64,000 nucleotides of DNA from a bacterium (GTDB lineage Bacteria > Verrucomicrobiota > Kiritimatiellia > CAIKKV01 > CAIYGI01). A program made the translations under genes and the position numbers. The DNA lies in contig JANYBP010000005.1 of the NCBI GenBank assembly GCA_025360745.1, positions 1 through 64,000 of the forward strand. The letters are read 5' to 3'. Shown piece by piece: positions 9,796-42,296 of the stretch (position 1 is the first letter of the stretch; every line of letters begins with the position of its first letter). The notes below the pieces were generated by a model, which was not told the DNA's origin, made no database searches, and saw only the letters and a program-made list of their open reading frames with translations.

Positions 9796-10965
9796 ATGGC
9801 ACACGAGACGTATTTGTTTACTTCGGAATCTGTTACGGAAGGGCACCCCGACAAAGTGGCGGACGGCATCTCGGACGCCGTTTTGGACGCCAATCTGCGT
9901 CAGGATCCCCGCGCCCGTGTGGCCTGTGAAACGCTGGTCAGCACCGGGCTGGTCGTGATCGCGGGCGAGATCACCAGCCGGGCCACGGTCGACTACTCAA
10001 GCCTGGCTCGCGAAAAGATCCGCCGCATCGGCTATGACGATGCCAGCCTCGGCTTCTCGGCCGACAGTTGCGGCGTGCTGATCGCGCTGGACCGCCAGTC
10101 CCCGGACATCTCGCAGGGCGTGACGCAGGGCCAAGGAATGTTCAAGGAACAGGGCGCCGGTGACCAGGGCATGATGTTCGGTTATGCCTGCGACGAGACG
10201 CGCGAAATGATGCCGATGCCGATCATGTTCGCCCACCGGCTGACACGCGGCCTGGCCAATGCGCGGCGCGACGGCTCTCTGCCCTGGCTGCGGCCGGACG
10301 GCAAGTCGCAGGTGACCATCGCCTACGAGGATGGCAAACCGATGTACGTTGACACGGTGGTGGTTTCGACCCAGCACGCCCCGGACGTGAAGTACAAGGA
10401 AGTGCATGATGGCGTGATCGAGGAGATCGTCAAACAAGTGATTTCCCCAAAGCTGCTGACCAAGCGGACCAAGTATCTGATCAATCCGACCGGACGCTTC
10501 GTGATTGGCGGACCACACGGCGACAGCGGTGTCACCGGCCGCAAAATCATCGTGGATACCTACGGTGGCATGGGCCGTCACGGAGGCGGCGCCTTTTCAG
10601 GCAAGGATCCGTCCAAGGTTGACCGCAGCGCGGCCTATATGGCGCGTTATGTGGCCAAGAACGTGGTGGCGGCCAAATTGGCCCGCCGCTGCGAGTTGCA
10701 ACTGGCCTACGCGATCGGCTATCCGAATCCGGTTTCGGTGCATATCGACACCTTCGGCACAGGCTCGGTCAGCGACCGGCAGATCGAAAAGGCCGTCAGG
10801 GCGGTGTTTGGATTGAAACCGGCGGAGATCATCGAAACCTTGAATCTGCTGCGGCCGATTTACGAGGCCACCTCGATGTACGGCCACTTCGGACGCACCC
10901 GGGAGTTGGACGTTTTCACCTGGGAACGCACGGATCGCGCCGCGGATCTGCGCGCGGCGGTGTAA
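9796..10965 (+). CDS. metK: S-adenosylmethionine synthetase
   Basis: Makes S-adenosylmethionine from methionine and ATP. Seen: [21 protein letters not shown] with the catalytic His, [12 protein letters not shown] hexapeptide region, [20 protein letters not shown], and the [19 protein letters not shown] block. 389 residues is typical. GAAAGGAA eight bases before the ATG is a good ribosome binding site. Only 39 bases separate it from ptsI, too little for a SAM riboswitch, so it is probably read from the same transcript or a promoter inside ptsI. A repeat-derived hairpin with a T-rich run follows about 95 bases downstream. Confidence 0.97.
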
Positions 10966-10988
10966 GTCGGAGCGACGGAAGATAAAAG

Positions 10989-11069
10989 GGTTCAGGGTTC
11001 GGGGTACAGGTAAGATAACGACTTCTGTGCCTGATCTGAGAAACCAGGGTTCAGGGTGTCAGGGTTCAG
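10989..11069 (+). repeat. Dispersed GGTTCAG heptamer repeats
   Basis: Three contiguous units (GGTTCAG, GGTTCGG, GGTACAG) at 10989-11009, then further copies at 11048-11054 and 11063-11069. GGTTCAG is a rotation of the reverse complement of GAACCCT, which is repeated at 23975-23988 and in the downstream hairpin arm. Confidence 0.85.
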
Positions 11070-11113
11070 GAAAAATCCATCCTGAACCCTGAACTTTGGG
11101 CCCTTTTTTATTT
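11059..11113 (+). terminator. Heptamer-derived hairpin plus T-rich run, possible metK operon terminator
   Basis: TCAGGGTTCAGGA at 11059-11071 pairs perfectly over 13 bp with TCCTGAACCCTGA at 11080-11092, leaving an 8-base loop (AAAATCCA). A T-rich tract (CTTTTTTATTTTT) begins about 10 bases after the stem. The stem is built from opposite-orientation copies of the heptamer repeat. The gap between stem and T-tract is longer than in a textbook intrinsic terminator, so termination is plausible, not certain. Confidence 0.5.
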
Positions 11114-11453
11114 TTCGATCCATCTGGTGGCGGCCTTTGCGCCAGTTTCCCGACTGATACCCGAAACCATCTTTCCCCATTCCGACCGGCGGCGTGACTT
11201 AACCGCTTGACGGTTTTTGGGAGGGTTTTCGGCGAGGACAAAGAAACGAGAAAACCCTTGATAAGTACACGGTCATGGCGACCTCGCCACATATGTTCAG
11301 GCAGCAGTTGCGTCCGCCGCAGGACGGCGTATGATGGACGCACGGCATCGTTGGGGTATATCCCTGAGCGGAGTCAGTTGCGGAAAGTCCGTCTGATCGA
11401 TGAAGAGTTTTCCGCGGTTGATGTTCGGGTGCAAGGACGTGTAAGGAGACGAT
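11114..11453. other. Intergenic region upstream of the AAA/DUF4276 module
   Basis: About 340 bases with no ORF that looks like a gene and no RNA gene recognised. It probably contains the promoter of the downstream ATPase (see 11308-11335). Confidence 0.5.
11308..11335 (+). promoter_or_regulatory. Weak candidate promoter for the AAA ATPase gene
   Basis: TTGCGT at 11308-11313 and TATGAT at 11330-11335, separated by 16 bases, resemble a sigma-70 promoter on the plus strand, about 120 bases before the start codon. Spacing and -35 are suboptimal, and the match could be chance. Confidence 0.25.
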
Positions 11454-12611
11454 ATGAGCAAACTGAAACGCATATTTCTGAACGGCTTTAAGTCGTTCCG
11501 CTTTGCCGGAAGGGAACTGGACGAAGCCCAGCAAACCGAAGCGGGCAATGCCATTGAGTTCGGGGACATCACCGTTTTGCTCGGAGCCAACGGGGCAGGG
11601 AAGAGCAACATCGTTTCGTTCTTCAGGATGCTGAATTACATGATGACCGGGGCACTTCAAGAGTTCGTCGGCAAGGGAGGCGGGGCTTCGTCCATCCTGC
11701 ACTACGGCCCCAAGACGACTCCCAAAATGCAGGCCGTCGTAGAGTTCGAGTCGGATCAACGGAAGAGCCGCTACGAGATGATCTTTACGGATGCACCACC
11801 TGATATTTTGATGTTCACCAATGAGAATGTTTTTTTTCACGATGCTGCCTGCCCCAGACCCCAGGAGATGGTTCTTCAGAGCGGGCATCAGGAGAGCGCC
11901 TTGAAGGGACGTGCGAAGAACAATGGAACGTGTCGGGTGATCTACGCAATGCTTTCCGGATGCCGTACTTATCAGTTTCACGACACGTCTGCCACCGCCA
12001 ATGTGCGGAAACCCTCCTACATCGAGAACACAAAATACTTGCTGAGCGATGCCGGCAACCTCGCCCCATACCTTTATGCCATGCGGGAGAGCACGCAGGA
12101 ACGGCGATACTACGACCGGATCGTCAGCACCATCCAGCAGGTCTACCCCCAGTTCAAGGACTTCGACATTGAGCCATCGAGACTGGATGATAAGAACATG
12201 CTTCTGAATTGGCGGGAGAAAGGAAACTCGGAGTACCTGTTCGGCCCTCATCAACTCTCTGACGGTACGCTGCGCTTCATGGCTTTGGCAACGTTGTTTC
12301 TTCAGCCGCCACATAGGCTCCCATCGGCCATTGTCATTGATGAACCTGAGCTGGGACTTCACCCCCATGCGATCACGGTGCTGGCCGGAATCATTCACGG
12401 GGTCTCCAACAAGTGCCAGGTTGTTCTCTCGACCCAGTCCACCAGACTCGTGGACGAGTTTGAGGTGGGGCAGATTGTCGTGGTTGAGCGGGATCGAAAG
12501 GAGAATTTCAGCCGTTGCCGCCGTCCCGATGCCAAGGCCCTTGAGGAGTGGATCAAGCAGTATTCGACAAGCGAACTGTGGGAGAAGAACGTGTTGGGAG
12601 GGCGGCCATGA
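11454..12611 (+). CDS. AAA (ABC/SMC-type) ATPase of a two-gene ATPase + DUF4276 module
   Basis: 385-residue ATPase resembling COG4637/AAA_21 proteins. Walker A LLGANGAGKSNIVSFFRML spans about 42-60, with the RecF/OLD-like preceding block LNGFKSFR. A signature-like LSDGTLRFMALATLFL lies near 268-283, followed by Walker B IVIDEPELGLHP (about 293-304) and VVLSTQSTRLVDEF as a switch region. A clear AAGGAGACGAT precedes the ATG at 11454. The stop overlaps the DUF4276 gene (ATGA). Such ATPases paired with TOPRIM-like partners occur in defence systems (OLD, PARIS, AbiL). A defence role here is inferred from the pairing. Base composition is visibly lower in GC than the neighbours, suggesting transfer. 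Confidence 0.85.
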   Translation: MSKLKRIFLNGFKSFRFAGRELDEAQQTEAGNAIEFGDITVLLGANGAGKSNIVSFFRMLNYMMTGALQEFVGKGGGASSILHYGPKTTPKMQAVVEFESDQRKSRYEMIFTDAPPDILMFTNENVFFHDAACPRPQEMVLQSGHQESALKGRAKNNGTCRVIYAMLSGCRTYQFHDTSATANVRKPSYIENTKYLLSDAGNLAPYLYAMRESTQERRYYDRIVSTIQQVYPQFKDFDIEPSRLDDKNMLLNWREKGNSEYLFGPHQLSDGTLRFMALATLFLQPPHRLPSAIVIDEPELGLHPHAITVLAGIIHGVSNKCQVVLSTQSTRLVDEFEVGQIVVVERDRKENFSRCRRPDAKALEEWIKQYSTSELWEKNVLGGRP

Positions 12612-13300
12612 CATCCCGCCTGCATGTGACTGCCGAGGGGCCTACCGAAGAACGGTATGTCAACAATGTGCTCGTGAATCATCTCGGGGGCTTTCAGGTC
12701 GTCACCGACGTTCGCAGCGTCAAGACCGGCCGCAAGCGTGGGGTGGGCTATCGCGGCGGAATGACGAACTTTCCGAAGGCACGACAGGACATCCTGAATT
12801 GGATGAAGGAAGACCAGAACCCCGACGCATTCTTTACGACCATGTTTGACCTATACGCCCTGCCGGACGACTTCCCAGGCTATGTAGATGCCCGCCGGGA
12901 AAATGACCCGTATCGGAGGGTTGCCGTGTTGGAGGCCGCCCTCAAACAGGATTTCAGTCATCCCCGTTTCCTGCCCTACGTCCAACTTCACGAATTCGAG
13001 GCTCTGATCCTGGCCGAACCGCGGAAACTCGACTGGGAGTACCTCGAACACGACGATGCCATAGGGCGTCTCGTCCGGATGGTGGGTGAACAGAACCCTG
13101 AACTCATCAACGACGGCCCGGAGACTTCCCCCTCCAAGCGGATCATCCGGGAGATTCCGGCGTACGAACACCAGAAGGCGTCATCAGGCCCCATCGTGGC
13201 CGGGAGAATCGGGATTCCCGTGCTCAAAGATCGGTGCCGTCATTTCAATAACTGGCTTGGACAACTTGAACGGCTGCCGCAGGCACTGGGCCAAACATAA
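12608..13300 (+). CDS. DUF4276 protein (TOPRIM-like nuclease candidate)
   Basis: The ATG at 12608 (overlapping the ATPase stop) gives 230 residues; the track's longer version runs inside the ATPase gene. It matches my memory of DUF4276: an N-terminal strand followed by TAEGPTEERYV (Glu of a TOPRIM-like motif, residues 8-18), TTMFDLYALPDDFPG (acidic motif, about 78-92), YVQLHEFEALIL (about 120), PSKRI, and a C-terminal HFNNWLGQLERL. DUF4276 proteins are often encoded beside AAA ATPases, and the fold has been linked to TOPRIM nucleases. Nuclease activity here is inference. It is the last gene of the module. No third component or integrase is visible. Confidence 0.85.
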   Translation: MTSRLHVTAEGPTEERYVNNVLVNHLGGFQVVTDVRSVKTGRKRGVGYRGGMTNFPKARQDILNWMKEDQNPDAFFTTMFDLYALPDDFPGYVDARRENDPYRRVAVLEAALKQDFSHPRFLPYVQLHEFEALILAEPRKLDWEYLEHDDAIGRLVRMVGEQNPELINDGPETSPSKRIIREIPAYEHQKASSGPIVAGRIGIPVLKDRCRHFNNWLGQLERLPQALGQT

Positions 13301-13497
13301 TGAGGAGGGTATCGTTATGCAGGCTCCAAAACTGACGTTCGGCGACCGAGCCTGATGTTGTCTGGGTGAACCGATGCCGTTCTCGCTGTGATCCGCGCCT
13401 GCGAACCGCTGGTCATTACCACGATATTCGACCAGTGAAATGCGGATTTTCACAAACCGTGTCGCGGGAAACACGCTGGCGTTTGGTGTGCTTTGCC
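13301..13497. other. Intergenic region between the convergent DUF4276 and FHA genes
   Basis: No gene recognised. A 12-codon ORF at 13317-13355 has a good AGGAGG but no other support. No clear bidirectional terminator seen. Confidence 0.45.
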
Positions 13498-13532
13498 GAA
13501 CACTGCACACCGAACACTGAACACCGAACACT
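13498..13532 (+). repeat. 5-copy heptanucleotide array (GAACACT/GAACACC)
   Basis: Five consecutive 7-base units: GAACACT, GCACACC, GAACACT, GAACACC, GAACACT. It ends five bases before the FHA gene stop codon. It forms the right flank of the ATPase/DUF4276 module, whose left flank carries GGTTCAG/GAACCCT heptamers. Confidence 0.93.
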
Positions 13533-14595: not shown

Positions 14596-14730
14596 CTGTC
14601 GCAACCTTTCTGGCCGGAACGCACGGGCCGTTCGGACGACCTCTTCCTTACCCCGCCCAGCTTCGCGCGTCAATCAAAATTGGGCACATCGTGCTTGCGT
14701 TTGCGCCGCAACTCGGGCAGATTATTCCCC

Positions 14731-16685
14731 ATGGCGCTGAATTTAAAGCGATGCACGCAATTAGTCTTGGGCCTTGTAGGTTGGTTGCTGGTATCCACCG
14801 CGCCGGCCATCTCCTACCGCGACTGGATAGCCGAGCCGGCGCCGGCGGATGCAACGATTACGCTTCTCGTTGAGCCGCTGTCCAATGGATGCGTTGCGGC
14901 GACTCAGAGCATTGAATTGTCGTCGTTCGGACATGGCCGCCATGCCAACGATAAACGTGAGTTGCCCACGCGCCCATCCGGTGGTTATCTCGGGCAACTT
15001 ATCGTTCGACGGTTTGCGGGGGCCAGACTCTATTTTCCGCTGACGGTATGCTTGTCGTTTCCAACCGTTCAAGTCGAGGACCTGCTGCCGTCTACGGGGC
15101 AAAGTCTTTCGAATTCCACGGCAAGTTTGAAATGGCACCTGCCTATGGGCATCTTGAATCCCGCCGCGCCGTTGCGCGCGGAACGCTTCCGGCGAAGTTG
15201 GTCCATCGCGAGCCTGTCCGCGGACGAGCGCGCGACCATACCGCTGATGCTTGCCGCGATGCCGGGCGGTGGATACCGCTCCCGCGACAATCTCCACACC
15301 TGTCTGTGCGAAATCCGGGATGCCCGGGGAACCGTCCTGCTGCGGAAACAGGTGGTGGAAATCTTCCGGCAGGACTGGTGCAATGGCAGCAGCACGGGCT
15401 GGGTGATGAACGAACTGGAGGCCGACCGCTTTCTGCGCGATTCCGCCGGCGTCAACAATACGCATACCATTACCGAACTTCCACCGCTGATCGAACCCTA
15501 TGCCGAAATCAATGCCTTATGGGTGTCCGACGAGGCCTCCCGCGGCGCCGCGCTGACCCAGGCGATGCTGCGGCGTCTGCTGCTGATGGGCATCTGGATT
15601 TATGGCCGCGACGCCACCATTTTCAAACTGACCGCCATGGCGGGTTTGCCAGGTCAATGTTCCGTGCTGTTGGGCGGCATTCAAGGAGTGCTTTTGCCGT
15701 CGGTCAAGGATTCCGGCGAAAAGCATGGTTCGTCACAACGCGAGAATTCGTTCTGGGACTACTACATTCCAAATGCGGGCGACGGAAATAAACAGGCCGT
15801 GCCGGTCATGGAAAACCGCCGCGATCTGTTTCAACCGCTCAAGGGCCGCTATCTTGGCTGGACCTGCGGCGTGCTTGGCATTTTTCTGGGCGTGGCCTGC
15901 ATCGGCCTGCCGGTCGCCTTCCGGCGTCTGAAAGGCTCGCGCCGCCTGATGCTCTGGTGGCTGATCCCGCTGGTCACGGTTTCGATCGGCAGCCTGAGCC
16001 TGATCGGCGGCCAGTTGCTGCTCCCGCGCCAGCCGCAAGCCGATGTCACCGAATACCGATTCGCCTTCGCCGGCTGGCCCGAAGTTTTTTGCCGCAGCGT
16101 CAATCGCAGTCTGACTTTCGAAAACCGGCAGGTCTCATGGACGATGCCCTTGGACAGTTTTATCATGCCTGTCCGCTCTCGTTCCAGTTCAGTCGGCCAG
16201 GAATGGATGGAAGCGTCAGCCGGCGGGATGGTACACGGCATGTCCGGAGTGAAACGCGGGCAATTGATGGACTCCGAAACCGCCGGATTTCGCGCTTTGC
16301 CGCTGCCCGTGGCGAGCGACGACAGCACAACCAACCCGCCCGGCTTGCGAGTGCTGGCGCCGCTGCGCCAGGTCCACGTCTGGGAAAATGGCGCGTGGCA
16401 CCGGGCGGGCGATCTTAAAGCCGGCCAGATTATCCGGACGCCCTTCGGCTCCAAGACCAATACGCTCTTCGGCCTGCCCCAGTGTATCAACGATTCCATC
16501 CCTGTTAACGGTTGCCCGTCCGCGCCTTTTTACAATACGCTGATCGTGGCGGCGTTATCCGACGAGCCCGCCGCCGTTCAACCGGGCATGAAAAATACGC
16601 GCAGCGAATCACGTGTCGTTTGGCTGATCCAGATTCCCGTGCAACCAACGCCCCCTGTGCCCGGCGAGATGGGGGATAAACCCAG

Positions 16686-16689
<4 letters not shown>
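14731..16689 (+). CDS. Large membrane protein of unknown function linked to an ABC exporter
   Basis: 652 residues from the ATG at 14731, which begins a signal-peptide-like segment (LKRCTQLVLGLVGWLLVST). The track's upstream extension is basic and unlikely to be translated. A long extracytoplasmic domain (about 30-370) is followed by two TMs (about 374-396, 406-428) joined by a basic loop, then a second, beta-rich extracytoplasmic domain of about 220 residues. I do not recognise the family. It overlaps the following ABC ATPase gene by 4 bases, so it is probably an accessory or substrate-interacting subunit of that transporter (inference). The SD sequence is weak. Confidence 0.7.
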
Positions 16690-17671
<982 letters not shown>

Positions 17672-17675
<4 letters not shown>

Positions 17676-18484
17676 TGAATCCCTTGTACTGGCTGGAATT
17701 GCGCGTGCGCGCCCGGGAAAAACGGCTCTGGCTGATCGCGCTGTTTTTCGTGATCGTCATGGCGATCATCAGCGGGATCATGCTGGCCACATCCATGCAG
17801 TCGTCTGGCAATCGTTTCATCGAGCCCCTAAATATCGGCGAGGGCATGATCTGGACGGCGTTATTTTGCCAGGCCGGCCTGCTCGTGATCCTGGCGCCGC
17901 TGGCCACGGCCGGACGGATTTCACAGGAACGCGAACAACGCACGCTGGCCGCGCTGGTCAATTCTCCCGCCAGCGCGACCCGCATTGCGTTGGGCAAATT
18001 GTGGGGCGCCTGGACCTTTGTGCTCTGGCTCGGGGTGCTGGTGCTGCCGTTCCTCTTCACGGCGACACTCTGGGGCGGACCTTCCTGGAAGTTGATTCTC
18101 GGCTGCCTCGGACTGAACTTGCTGGCCGGTTTAGTTCTTTCGGCGCTGTCGCTGGGTATATCCGGACTGTTCGGACGCTCGTTAACCGCCTATTTGGTTA
18201 CCGGCTGTTTCCTTTTCGGCTGGATCGCGGTGCTGCCTATGCTGGGTTCCCTGGCCATGGCGTTGAATCATGACGGAAGTGTCGCTCCCCATTACCAGGA
18301 ATTCGTGATGTACCTGACGATGTATCACAATCCTTTCTATCCCCTGATTTCATTGACCGAGGCTGTCACGGAAACGGGCGGCAAATTTATCCTGCCGATG
18401 GTATATGGCGTGACGGTCTGGATCCTGCTGGGGTGGGGCGGACTGATGCTCGCGATCCGCAGCCTGAAGCGCGAAGTGTATTGA
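17672..18484 (+). CDS. ABC-2 type transporter permease
   Basis: 270 residues with six predicted TM segments (about 21-43, 59-81, 109-131, 136-165, 170-198, 243-262) and the short conserved cytoplasmic stretch SQEREQRTLAALVNSPAS between TM2 and TM3 that marks ABC-2 permeases. It contacts the ATPase encoded immediately upstream. Direction is probably export, as for most ABC-2 systems. Substrate unknown. The gene ends 72 bases before a convergent gene. Confidence 0.9.
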
Positions 18485-18532
18485 CCGTGACAGGCCCGCA
18501 CGACGGGTCGCCCGGATGTTCTCTCCTGAAGC

Positions 18533-18556
18533 GCCCGTTGCGTCAAGAAAACGGGC
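18533..18556. terminator. Possible hairpin between convergent operons
   Basis: GCCCGTT (18533-18539) pairs with AACGGGC (18550-18556), a 7-bp GC-rich stem with a 10-base loop, abutting the stop of the convergent DUF362 gene. There is no strong T-tract on either strand, so intrinsic termination is uncertain. Confidence 0.3.
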
Positions 18557-23974: not shown

Positions 23975-24016
23975 GAACCCTGAACCCTGAACACCGAACA
24001 CCGGACACTGAACACC
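23975..24016 (+). repeat. 6-copy heptanucleotide array (GAACCCT/GAACACC)
   Basis: Six consecutive 7-base units: GAACCCT x2, GAACACC x2, GGACACT, GAACACC. It lies between the antitoxin and the EF-G-like gene, and combines the two motif types that flank the ATPase/DUF4276 module. Confidence 0.95.
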
Positions 24017-39022: not shown

Positions 39023-39742
39023 TTATTCCCTGCCTTTCTCCGCGTTTACCGCGAAATCGATCGCCTGGATTGCCGACTGATCCACCTCGACACTCTTTCC
39101 GTACACGTCAGCCAGAAGATTTTCGTTGCGCCAGGCCGGGGGGCCGCACAACCGGTCGCCGTTGCGCAGGGTCACCGCATCCGTGACTAGCGGCGGCGGC
39201 CCGGCGATCAGCCAGGCCACATCGCCGGCGTCGAATTTTTCCAGGCCATCCGCGGTTCTCAGCAGAATCTGCCTCCGCGTGGCCGCCATGATTTTGCCGC
39301 CGCGTGTCACACCGTCGGTCTTTACAATTTCAAATACGCCCGTCCAATTCGAGCCGCTTTTGAGGGGGAGCCCGCCGGTTTCGAAGCGGATGCGGGAGAC
39401 GTTCGTCCAGGCCACTTCGATCTCCCCCGAGGTCACGCCGCGGAAAACCACCAATTCGCTGGTGGCCCGCCGCAGCAGGCCGCTCAACTCTGTTCCGTTG
39501 CGCAAGACCAGCCTTTGCCCGGGCGCCTGCAGCGGGGCCCGGTCGCGACGGAGGCCCGAGACGTTTGTCCAAGGCACGTTCTGACCGCCGGACAAGGATA
39601 CGCCGGCGGCCGCCAGCCGCACGATTTCAGCGCTGATTTTTTCGCCGGCGCGCGTGATCACGCAATCCCCGGCCGTCACGGACACGGCGGTCCAGGTCAT
39701 CAACGCAAAGCCTGCGCGGCGAGATATGCGGTTCGTGTTCAT
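39023..39742 (-). CDS. Secreted beta-repeat protein of unknown function
   Basis: The ATG at 39742 gives 239 residues with a signal peptide (RISRRAGFALMTWTAVSVTAG). The track's N-terminal extension lies in another frame of the upstream gene. The mature part appears to be four degenerate repeats of about 45 residues, each with an xGxxxxG turn, a hydrophobic strand and a final hydrophobic I/V-x-x-I motif. Two of them begin LRNGTELSG and LRNGDRLCG. Such short beta repeats occur in planctomycete envelope proteins, but I cannot name the family. It overlaps the squalene-cyclase-like gene by 4 bases. Confidence 0.75.
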   Translation of the reverse strand: MNTNRISRRAGFALMTWTAVSVTAGDCVITRAGEKISAEIVRLAAAGVSLSGGQNVPWTNVSGLRRDRAPLQAPGQRLVLRNGTELSGLLRRATSELVVFRGVTSGEIEVAWTNVSRIRFETGGLPLKSGSNWTGVFEIVKTDGVTRGGKIMAATRRQILLRTADGLEKFDAGDVAWLIAGPPPLVTDAVTLRNGDRLCGPPAWRNENLLADVYGKSVEVDQSAIQAIDFAVNAEKGRE

Positions 39743-40713
39743 CTCTGATAAATCGGCAGGTAGCGGTAGGGAGTTCCGATCACGAGGATCGCCCAGGAAG
39801 TGTTCAGCACATCGCCGTAGTGTCCTCTTCTCGACCAGTCGCGCAGGACACTCTCGCAAACCTTCGGATAATAGGTCTTCCAGGCGTCGCCGCCGTAATG
39901 GTAAAGCGCCACCGAGACGTAATAGTGGCCGTACCAGCAATAGGGCTGGTCGGTGGTGTTGTAATCGATCTTCTGCATCAGGTACTGGACGGCCTTGGGC
40001 ACGTTGGGATCTTCCGCAAGTCCGCACGACTGGAGGCAGACCGTACCGGCGGCCGTCATGCGCACGCCCCCGTCACCGGCCTTGGCATAACCATAGGTCA
40101 TGGTGTCCGGCGCCCAATTACGCTTGACGTAGCGCACGCCCAGATCCACCGCCTCGCTTGGAACATAAAGTCCGGTGTCCATCGCCGCGCGCAGAGCCAT
40201 GATCTGCATCACAGTCACGGAGAGATCCTGATCCTTGGGAATCGGCGTATAGCGCCAGCCGCCCGCCGTAGTCTGGGCCTTGAGAATAAGTTGAATGGCT
40301 TTGGTCAGGGATTCCCGGATCGCGGGGTTATGGGTCATGCCGTAGGCCTCGGCCAGCGCCAGCGTGGCCAGGGCATGCTGGTACATATTGCCGCTCTTGC
40401 CCACCACCAGGTAGCCGTTCTCATGCTGGCTGCCGATCAGGAATTCGATCCCTTTGCCGATTTTGTCGCCATGCCTGCCGTGCCCCGGGGTGCTGCCGTT
40501 GACCATCAGCGCCATGACCGCCAGGCCGTTTCGGCCGTTGCAGGTTCCCCATGAGCCGTTGGGCTGCTGCGATTTCGCCAGCCATTCCTGCGCCTTCTCA
40601 ATGGCTTCCTCAACCTTGGGCTCGAGCGGCACCTCTGCGTCAAAGATAAACTCCGCCCGCGCCGTCGCGGACAGTCCCAGCCAGAGCAGGATTTGCAGCA
40701 GGCGTTTTCTCAT
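39739..40713 (-). CDS. Prenyltransferase/squalene-oxidase-repeat secreted protein
   Basis: 324 residues with a signal peptide (RKRLLQILLWLGLSATARA). The mature part is an alpha/alpha-toroid of the terpene cyclase/prenyltransferase-like type, with repeats such as KAQEWLAKSQQPNGSWG and KAIQLILKAQTTAGGWRYTP (QxxxGxW motifs). The catalytic DxDD of squalene-hopene cyclase is not visible, so cyclase activity is doubtful. Similar repeat proteins are common in planctomycete MoxR/Bat operons, where they probably act as binding scaffolds. It overlaps both neighbours by 4 bases. Confidence 0.85.
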   Translation of the reverse strand: MRKRLLQILLWLGLSATARAEFIFDAEVPLEPKVEEAIEKAQEWLAKSQQPNGSWGTCNGRNGLAVMALMVNGSTPGHGRHGDKIGKGIEFLIGSQHENGYLVVGKSGNMYQHALATLALAEAYGMTHNPAIRESLTKAIQLILKAQTTAGGWRYTPIPKDQDLSVTVMQIMALRAAMDTGLYVPSEAVDLGVRYVKRNWAPDTMTYGYAKAGDGGVRMTAAGTVCLQSCGLAEDPNVPKAVQYLMQKIDYNTTDQPYCWYGHYYVSVALYHYGGDAWKTYYPKVCESVLRDWSRRGHYGDVLNTSWAILVIGTPYRYLPIYQR

Positions 40714-42296
40714 TTCGCGAGTCTCTCAAAATAGCGTTTGGCATCGTCTTCCATGATCGGCAGGCTTTTCTCCTGCTGCCCGGAAAGCAAGGACTGGCGT
40801 TCGTTGGGGGGCAGGGCGGCCTTCCAGACCCGCGATCCCGCCGGAACCGCTCCAGTCTCCGGCGTAGCCGTGCCGAAGGCCTTTTCACGGCCCTGTTGAT
40901 CGCCGATCTCCTGGGGCGGTCCCATCGGTTCCTGCGTCTCGGGCGTCGCCGGCGGCGTTCCGGGTTGCGGCGTCGCGGGCGCGCCCGCCGCCTGGGCCAT
41001 GAGCGCGTTCATCTTGGCCGACGCCTGCTTCATGGCCGTGTCAAGTTTCTGCCCGGCTGCGGCGAGCGACTTCTGCGCCGCATCGTTGTTGCCCTGATCC
41101 GTTTCCGCTTTGGCGTTGCCCACATCCTTGCCCGGTTCCGGCAGCGCCGCGTTGTTCAGGTCCTTGCCCAACTGGTCCATTTTTTCGGCGGCGGCCTGGT
41201 GGTCTGTCGCGGCCTTGTTTTCCGTGGACACGGCATCCAGACGGTCCTTGAAATCCTGCAAGGCCGCCATCTGGTTGGCCATTTCGGTCATCTGGCTCAA
41301 GGCGGCGCTTTGCGCATCGATCGAAGCCTTCATCTCGGCGGCGACCTGATCCGCCGCCGCGGCCGCCTGGTTCGCGGCGGCCTGAAAATCCTGGGCGGCC
41401 TTCGACAACTGGTTGTTCTGCAATTCGTTCTGGCCGGCGCGCGTGTTGGCGGCCGCGTCGGGCGCCACGGCTTTGTCGAGCGCCTTGGCCGTCTCGTCGG
41501 CTTTCACCATCATGTCCAGCGCCTTGTCCGCGGTCCTGGCGTCTTCCGGCGCCGCGGCCAGTTTGTCCGCCTCCTTGGACAGTTTGTTCAGTTCCTGGCT
41601 GGCGTTTTCCAGGGCGTCCTTGCGCGCGGCCGCGGCGGCCAGTTCGTTCTCGCGCATGCCGGACTCCTGTTCCAGCGCCGCCACGGCCTTTTTCATCTCG
41701 TCGGCGGCGAGCTTGGGGTCGCCCTCCACGAGTTTCTCGGCGGCCTGCTTCATATCCTTGACCGCCTCGGTGTTGGCCGTCATGTTCGTCGCGGCGCGGA
41801 TCTCGCGCGCCAGGTCGTCGGCCTTTTGCTGCTGCGCCTCCGTGGGAGCAACGGCATCCCTGGCCAGGCTGTCGGCGGCCTGGCTAAGCGCGCGGATTTT
41901 CTCCAACGCGCCCGCATTGTCGCCGGCCGACATGGCGCCAAGGCGCCGTCCCAGACCCAACAGGGTCTTCGAGATGCGCTCGTGCCCCTGCCTGGCTCCC
42001 AGCAGGCAGGCCGCCTGATTGGTCGGCTGTTTCAAGCTTTGTTCGAGCATGCGCAGGACGGCTTGCATGTCGTTATTGCGCACCGCCGTCAGGCGCAGCG
42101 CGACATCGCGGTTCGATGCTATGTTCTCTGAAGAAAAAACGTTGCTGGTGTCCATTTCGCCCGCCAGGCTCTCGATCCGCGCCGACGCATCCTTGATCGC
42201 CGTGTCGCTTTGCATGGCGTCCCGCAGCGCATCGTCGCCGAAGGCCATTCCGGCGCCAGCCAGCGCTATCAACCAGAGCCACGCGCACTGTTTCAT
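40710..42296 (-). CDS. Secreted Ala-rich coiled-coil protein
   Basis: 528 residues with a signal peptide (CAWLWLIALAGAGMAFG), then almost entirely Ala/Glu/Lys/Asp/Gln helical sequence with heptad patterning (about 60-430), consistent with long coiled coils. A Pro/Thr-rich hinge (about 455-485) precedes a short C-terminal helical region. No catalytic motifs. It probably has a structural or spacer role in the periplasm with the other proteins of this operon. The start at 42296 overlaps the upstream stop (ATGA). Confidence 0.75.
   Translation of the reverse strand: MKQCAWLWLIALAGAGMAFGDDALRDAMQSDTAIKDASARIESLAGEMDTSNVFSSENIASNRDVALRLTAVRNNDMQAVLRMLEQSLKQPTNQAACLLGARQGHERISKTLLGLGRRLGAMSAGDNAGALEKIRALSQAADSLARDAVAPTEAQQQKADDLAREIRAATNMTANTEAVKDMKQAAEKLVEGDPKLAADEMKKAVAALEQESGMRENELAAAAARKDALENASQELNKLSKEADKLAAAPEDARTADKALDMMVKADETAKALDKAVAPDAAANTRAGQNELQNNQLSKAAQDFQAAANQAAAAADQVAAEMKASIDAQSAALSQMTEMANQMAALQDFKDRLDAVSTENKAATDHQAAAEKMDQLGKDLNNAALPEPGKDVGNAKAETDQGNNDAAQKSLAAAGQKLDTAMKQASAKMNALMAQAAGAPATPQPGTPPATPETQEPMGPPQEIGDQQGREKAFGTATPETGAVPAGSRVWKAALPPNERQSLLSGQQEKSLPIMEDDAKRYFERLAK

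Follow-up and report, generated by a model that had tools for sequence, protein, structure and literature searches.

A HEC-01 gene pair in a Kiritimatiellia genome: an OLD/ABC-type ATPase and a DUF4276 partner with a predicted TOPRIM fold

The stretch of DNA analysed here (the window; 64,000 nucleotides of contig JANYBP010000005.1, assembly GCA_025360745.1) comes from a bacterium of the class Kiritimatiellia and carries, between metK and an FHA gene, a pair of genes encoding an ATPase and a DUF4276 protein (Table 1). The ATPase possesses a Walker A motif (GANGAGKSN, residues 44–52), the signature LSDGTLRF and a Walker B motif (VIDEPELGLHP), and also has SMC_N-type similarity in Pfam, while its partner belongs to Pfam family PF14103, which is DUF4276. 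Both reading frames lie on the forward strand and share the ATGA overlap described in an earlier note on this DNA, and a Shine-Dalgarno-like GGAGGG lies within the codons for NVLGG, the conserved C-terminal residues of the ATPase. From the overlap and this motif together, we infer that translation of the DUF4276 gene is coupled to that of the ATPase gene. Near its N-terminus (residues about 16–32; window 11500–11550) the ATPase has about 11 additional residues that are absent from all 16 aligned relatives. The earlier note had also singled out the pair as a low-GC stretch and proposed a check of its codon use, and both analyses agree with it: the 1-kb bin 11001–12000 is the GC minimum of the window at 0.536, most other bins having values of 0.60–0.68, and the codon preference log scores of the pair (0.04 and 0.09) are far under the 0.20–0.31 of neighbouring genes in a comparison that leaves out lptA and hprK.

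Table 1. Coordinates in the window of the gene pair and of the features around it, with the evidence for each
Feature	Position	Strand	Evidence
Insertion carrying the pair, 2,550 bp	10965..13514		Alignment to same-genus genome G001, which has 52 bp there
Long hairpin between metK and the pair, of GGGTTCAG-type repeats with six T after it	11046..11104	+	−41.3 kcal/mol, z=−5.7; belongs to a dispersed repeat
HEC-01A, OLD/ABC-type ATPase, 385 aa	11454..12611	+	PADLOC HEC-01A E=1.5e-125; Pfam AAA_21 7.1e-26; motifs kept in relatives
ATGA start/stop overlap of the ATPase and DUF4276 genes	12608..12611	+	Same overlap in 18/19 relatives
HEC-01B, DUF4276 protein, 230 aa, predicted OLD-type TOPRIM nuclease	12608..13300	+	PADLOC HEC-01B E=2.2e-68; Pfam DUF4276 7.1e-44; AlphaFold pLDDT 90; PDB 6njv, 6njx; motif conservation
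Heptamer repeat GTGTTCAGTGTTCGG at the insertion's right edge	13510..13531	−	Empty site of G001 has an inverted pair of the same repeat

Both proteins match the PADLOC models of a named system, across residues 3–385 of the ATPase and residues 3–223 of its partner, and by these matches the pair is a copy of HEC-01, a candidate anti-phage system already in PADLOC-DB 2.0. According to PMC12988326, HEC denotes “Hma-embedded candidate” and originates from a guilt-by-embedding preprint (Payne et al. 2024). HEC-06 is described as active (PMC12988326), and both HEC-05 and HEC-06 are GmrSD-like (PMC11411939) and therefore unrelated to the HEC-01 pair. Among the papers searched, none names DUF4276. Weaker PADLOC matches fall on the ATPase only, to mad3 (8.6e-28), AriA (8.6e-25, a match at superfamily level) and AbiLi (2e-21), and the DUF4276 protein matches neither the AriB nor the AbiLii model (AbiLii at E≤0.1). 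The layout likened earlier to PARIS and AbiL stands as that of a two-gene module of ATPase/TOPRIM type, but by sequence the pair itself is neither system, since their models match the ATPase alone and far more weakly.

The gene pair is more than a chance arrangement, because the ATPase precedes DUF4276 in all 19 close relatives and the same four-base overlap, in the form xTGA, occurs in 18 of them; the contig of one of the 19 is cut inside the ATPase. Distant DUF4276 genes of the class are likewise preceded by a related ATPase. Across 16 loci the distances among the ATPases correlate with those among the DUF4276 proteins (r=0.81, a value reached by none of 5000 permutations), which is due to the shared descent of the pair and so shows co-inheritance, not contact. 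The genome of the window also contains a second, divergent HEC-01 pair on the reverse strand of contig C71 (about 39,315–41,150; L068:9316–11150), with matches of 3.5e-159 to HEC-01A and 6.5e-65 to HEC-01B, a four-base overlap of its own, and trypsin/PDZ-type protease genes nearby.

The locus has an empty counterpart, known from one genome (G001) of the same genus, where a single contig has only about 80 bp between metK (98% identical) and the FHA gene (97%) and lacks the pair; a search of that genome with both proteins gave no match to either. The comparison of metK–FHA synteny proposed in the earlier note thus found its empty site, and vertical conservation did not appear. Within the class, 12 of 58 genomes have any DUF4276 match, and these are scattered, with the pair missing from most of the order. 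The 19 closest DUF4276 relatives in the genome collection, at 51–61% identity, range across Geobacteraceae, Chlorobiaceae, Spirochaetota, Oligosphaera, Gammaproteobacteria, Planctomycetes, Myxococcota, Synergistales and others. Judged from these sequence comparisons, the pair is a horizontal acquisition and not vertically inherited at the locus, and the empty site shows it moving as a self-contained cassette of small size. Within the insertion, no reading frame for a transposase, integrase or helicase was seen.

The long hairpin between metK and the pair is probably a terminator. A scan of the region for terminator consensus found none, because its limits leave out so long a hairpin, which was found by folding instead; with this strong T-run hairpin next to metK, the cassette would therefore sit in the terminator region between convergent genes. 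A sequence of about 40 bp with GGGTTCAGGG units (window 11031–11075), part of this very stable hairpin, has copies of 92–100% identity on five or more other contigs. At its empty site G001 carries GTGTTCGGTGTTCGG as an inverted pair; near-exact copies of this repeat number about 100 per genome in the genus, vs 0–1 for the reversed control. Tandem heptamers of the form (GTGTTCG)n, often arranged as inverted pairs, occur at window positions 13510–13531 and 23987–24008 and genome-wide in the genome of the window (G000), G001 and G012; exact 13-base matches number about 70 per genome in the genus, 31 in G012 and nearly none in other members of the order, with 0 for the reversed control. G001 lacks a separate 3.9-kb block of the window (14659–18533), whose flanks are joined directly there; the block codes for an ABC transporter ATPase, a permease and a 669-aa protein that matches no Pfam family.

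Structure prediction suggests how the DUF4276 protein might be built. Folding from the single sequence produced a useless model (pLDDT 39.5), and the AlphaFold model based on an alignment of 18 sequences reached a pLDDT of 90 and a pTM of 0.87. The best two Foldseek matches to this model among 350,542 PDB chains are 6njv (E=4e-3, prob 0.99) and 6njx (E=1.4e-2, prob 0.98), with TM scores of 0.43–0.51 and modest E-values, and both represent the C-terminal region of Xanthomonas OLD, including its TOPRIM domain. The TOPRIM-like character suggested earlier for this protein is thus also what the model predicts. Single-protein and profile searches found no PDB relative by sequence, and the model had no meaningful counterpart in a viral structure library.

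Several residues of this predicted fold may form the active site. Strand 1 is followed by E10 and E14, strand 3 has D81 at its end, strand 4 is followed by E129 and E131, and two lysines, K177 and K190, lie in the helical part; all are invariant or nearly so. Of 18 relatives, 17 have E10 and E14, and the remaining one (L031) is disrupted at just that place. D81 is invariant, and all 18 close relatives have Y83 at the second DxD position, giving DLY in this subgroup. Distant DUF4276 proteins have DQD, DLD or DCD at the DxD position together with [RH]ExE, and the wider family is therefore tied to TOPRIM. The metal ligands of Bp OLD are E400, E404, D455, D457, T506 and E508, with K562 in a helical insert (PMC6755086); by order and spacing, on which the pairing of residues rests, E400/E404, D455xD457, T506xE508 and K562 are paralleled in DUF4276 by E10/E14, D81xY83, E129xE131 and K177 or K190.

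The tyrosine raises the question of whether a TOPRIM-folded DUF4276 is a general nuclease at all, as with DxY it might only nick, act on a nucleotide or other special substrate, or be a subunit that regulates the ATPase. The invariance of Y83 in the 18 close relatives, whereas distant members retain DxD, is in keeping with such a role, as is the observation that Bp OLD with a single intact metal site performs nicking only (PMC6755086). We nevertheless regard it as unlikely, as the remaining metal-site residues (E10, E14, D81, E129, E131) are kept in DUF4276 along with a lysine, and Bp OLD tolerated single substitutions of metal A residues (PMC6755086).

The neighbourhoods of the relatives point towards defence. 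In six independent lineages (L016, L017, L019, L020/L022, L033 and genome G045) the pair lies immediately 5′ of BREX PglZ–BrxL, and PglX is upstream in the four with enough sequence (L016, L017, L019 and L020/L022), the contigs of L033 and G045 ending upstream of the pair. L020 is from Halomonas ventosae and L022 from Marinobacter pelagius, both of them in culture. The same BREX-operon slot in 6 of about 17 independent loci cannot be chance. In L017 and L020/L022, PglX and HEC-01 are separated by another gene pair; in L022 this is Septu PtuA and PtuB, and the PtuA of L017 is 67% identical. The operons nesting both Septu and HEC-01 are found at L017:2018–3915 and L022:4906–6824. Type I restriction genes are neighbours elsewhere, with methyltransferase and specificity genes downstream in L023 and a specificity gene upstream in G012, and no clear known defence gene was seen among the few neighbours scanned at each of L021, L024, L026, L027, L028, L030 and L034. 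The earlier note had proposed a candidate anti-phage system and a search for enrichment near defence genes; the BREX and type I restriction neighbours of the relatives support this proposal, with the correction that the system was already catalogued. Genomic context thus lends good support to a putative role in defence. In the genome of the window, no further defence gene turned up next to the pair, and searches of this genome and of its same-genus counterpart did not find PglZ. Backing up BREX therefore cannot be the role of the pair there, and a BREX partner for the window copy is rejected.

Overlapping genes, patchy spread and some plasmid copies would also fit a toxin–antitoxin-like addiction module, where the ATPase curbs a toxic DUF4276 protein and the pair persists mainly through its own stability. 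This appears improbable given that plasmid copies are rare (12 of 72,556 records), that no relative was present among the viral contigs or phage records searched, that the pair lies within BREX operons and next to type I restriction genes, and that either gene of PARIS can be deleted without toxicity (PMC9122126). A DNA-repair or housekeeping pair of RecF/SMC-like ATPase and RecR-like TOPRIM partner with no defence role, to which the SMC_N-type similarity, the TOPRIM domains of RecR and primases, and the solitary position of the window copy among housekeeping genes would lend themselves, is very improbable for a pair that most of the order and a same-genus genome lack, that is spread across phyla, and that is embedded in defence operons in its relatives.

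The reading that we prefer, and hold to be somewhat probable, is that of a HEC-01 cassette, acquired horizontally at a terminator between convergent genes, where an infection-sensing ATPase controls a coupled TOPRIM nuclease that stops phage. The ATPase, a member of the OLD-ABC superfamily, would sense phage infection, plausibly by way of an inhibitor that acts on restriction or BREX, and would restrain or license its translationally coupled partner. DUF4276, as a putative stand-alone OLD-type TOPRIM nuclease, would cut nucleic acid (tRNA or DNA) once activated, and phage production would be stopped, probably by abortive infection and perhaps at the cost of the cell. We infer this sequence of sensing, activation, nuclease activity, substrate and outcome because of the analogy with OLD and PARIS (PMC6755086, PMC9122126), PARIS being a precedent for two-gene ATPase/TOPRIM defence (PMC9122126), and because TOPRIM-linked OLD-ABC dyads in BREX loci have been proposed as backup effectors (PMC12839542). 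A split OLD/PARIS-like working, where the ATPase senses infection and unleashes the TOPRIM nuclease, is on this analogy the most likely. It counts against this reading that OLD-family ATPases can have roles outside defence, as with Cran1 (PMC12796447). As HEC-01 repeatedly precedes PglZ in unrelated BREX operons, its recurring place suggests that the pair may back up BREX there, as proposed for PARIS-like modules. A further and more tentative possibility, which we would doubt more readily than accept, is that HEC-01 represents a separate split-OLD lineage with an origin apart from PARIS and a trigger or substrate of its own, an anti-anti-restriction guard whose DxY TOPRIM nuclease would be unleashed by the ATPase upon inhibition of BREX or type I restriction.

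What this analysis adds is the assignment of DUF4276 to TOPRIM with its DxY variant, the place of the pair in BREX operons and the empty insertion site, the system itself having been catalogued before. The predicted fold and the active-site hypothesis make HEC-01, which is apparently uncharacterised, directly testable.

The known systems share parts of this design. Class 2 OLD nucleases (Xcc and Bp OLD) and GajA of Gabija have the ATPase superfamily in common with the pair and a TOPRIM fold with similar acidic residues, but in these the ATPase and TOPRIM are fused and the DxD is full, whereas the window system has two genes and DxY. Gabija is rejected as an identity, the 2.55-kb insertion having no helicase reading frame and the ATPase no fused TOPRIM. 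AbiL (AbiLi–AbiLii) is likewise an operon of an ATPase and a second gene, but the AbiLi match to the window ATPase is weak and the DUF4276 protein has no AbiLii match at E≤0.1, so AbiL is rejected by sequence. PARIS (AriA–AriB, OLD class 4) also consists of two genes, an OLD-ABC ATPase and a separate TOPRIM partner, and both kinds are found in BREX loci; AriB, however, is a DUF4435 protein, and identity with PARIS is rejected since the window partner matches the DUF4276 and HEC-01B models only. HEC-01 differs in its setting, the window pair being alone among housekeeping genes and not embedded within another defence system, but both proteins match its models and the gene order is identical.
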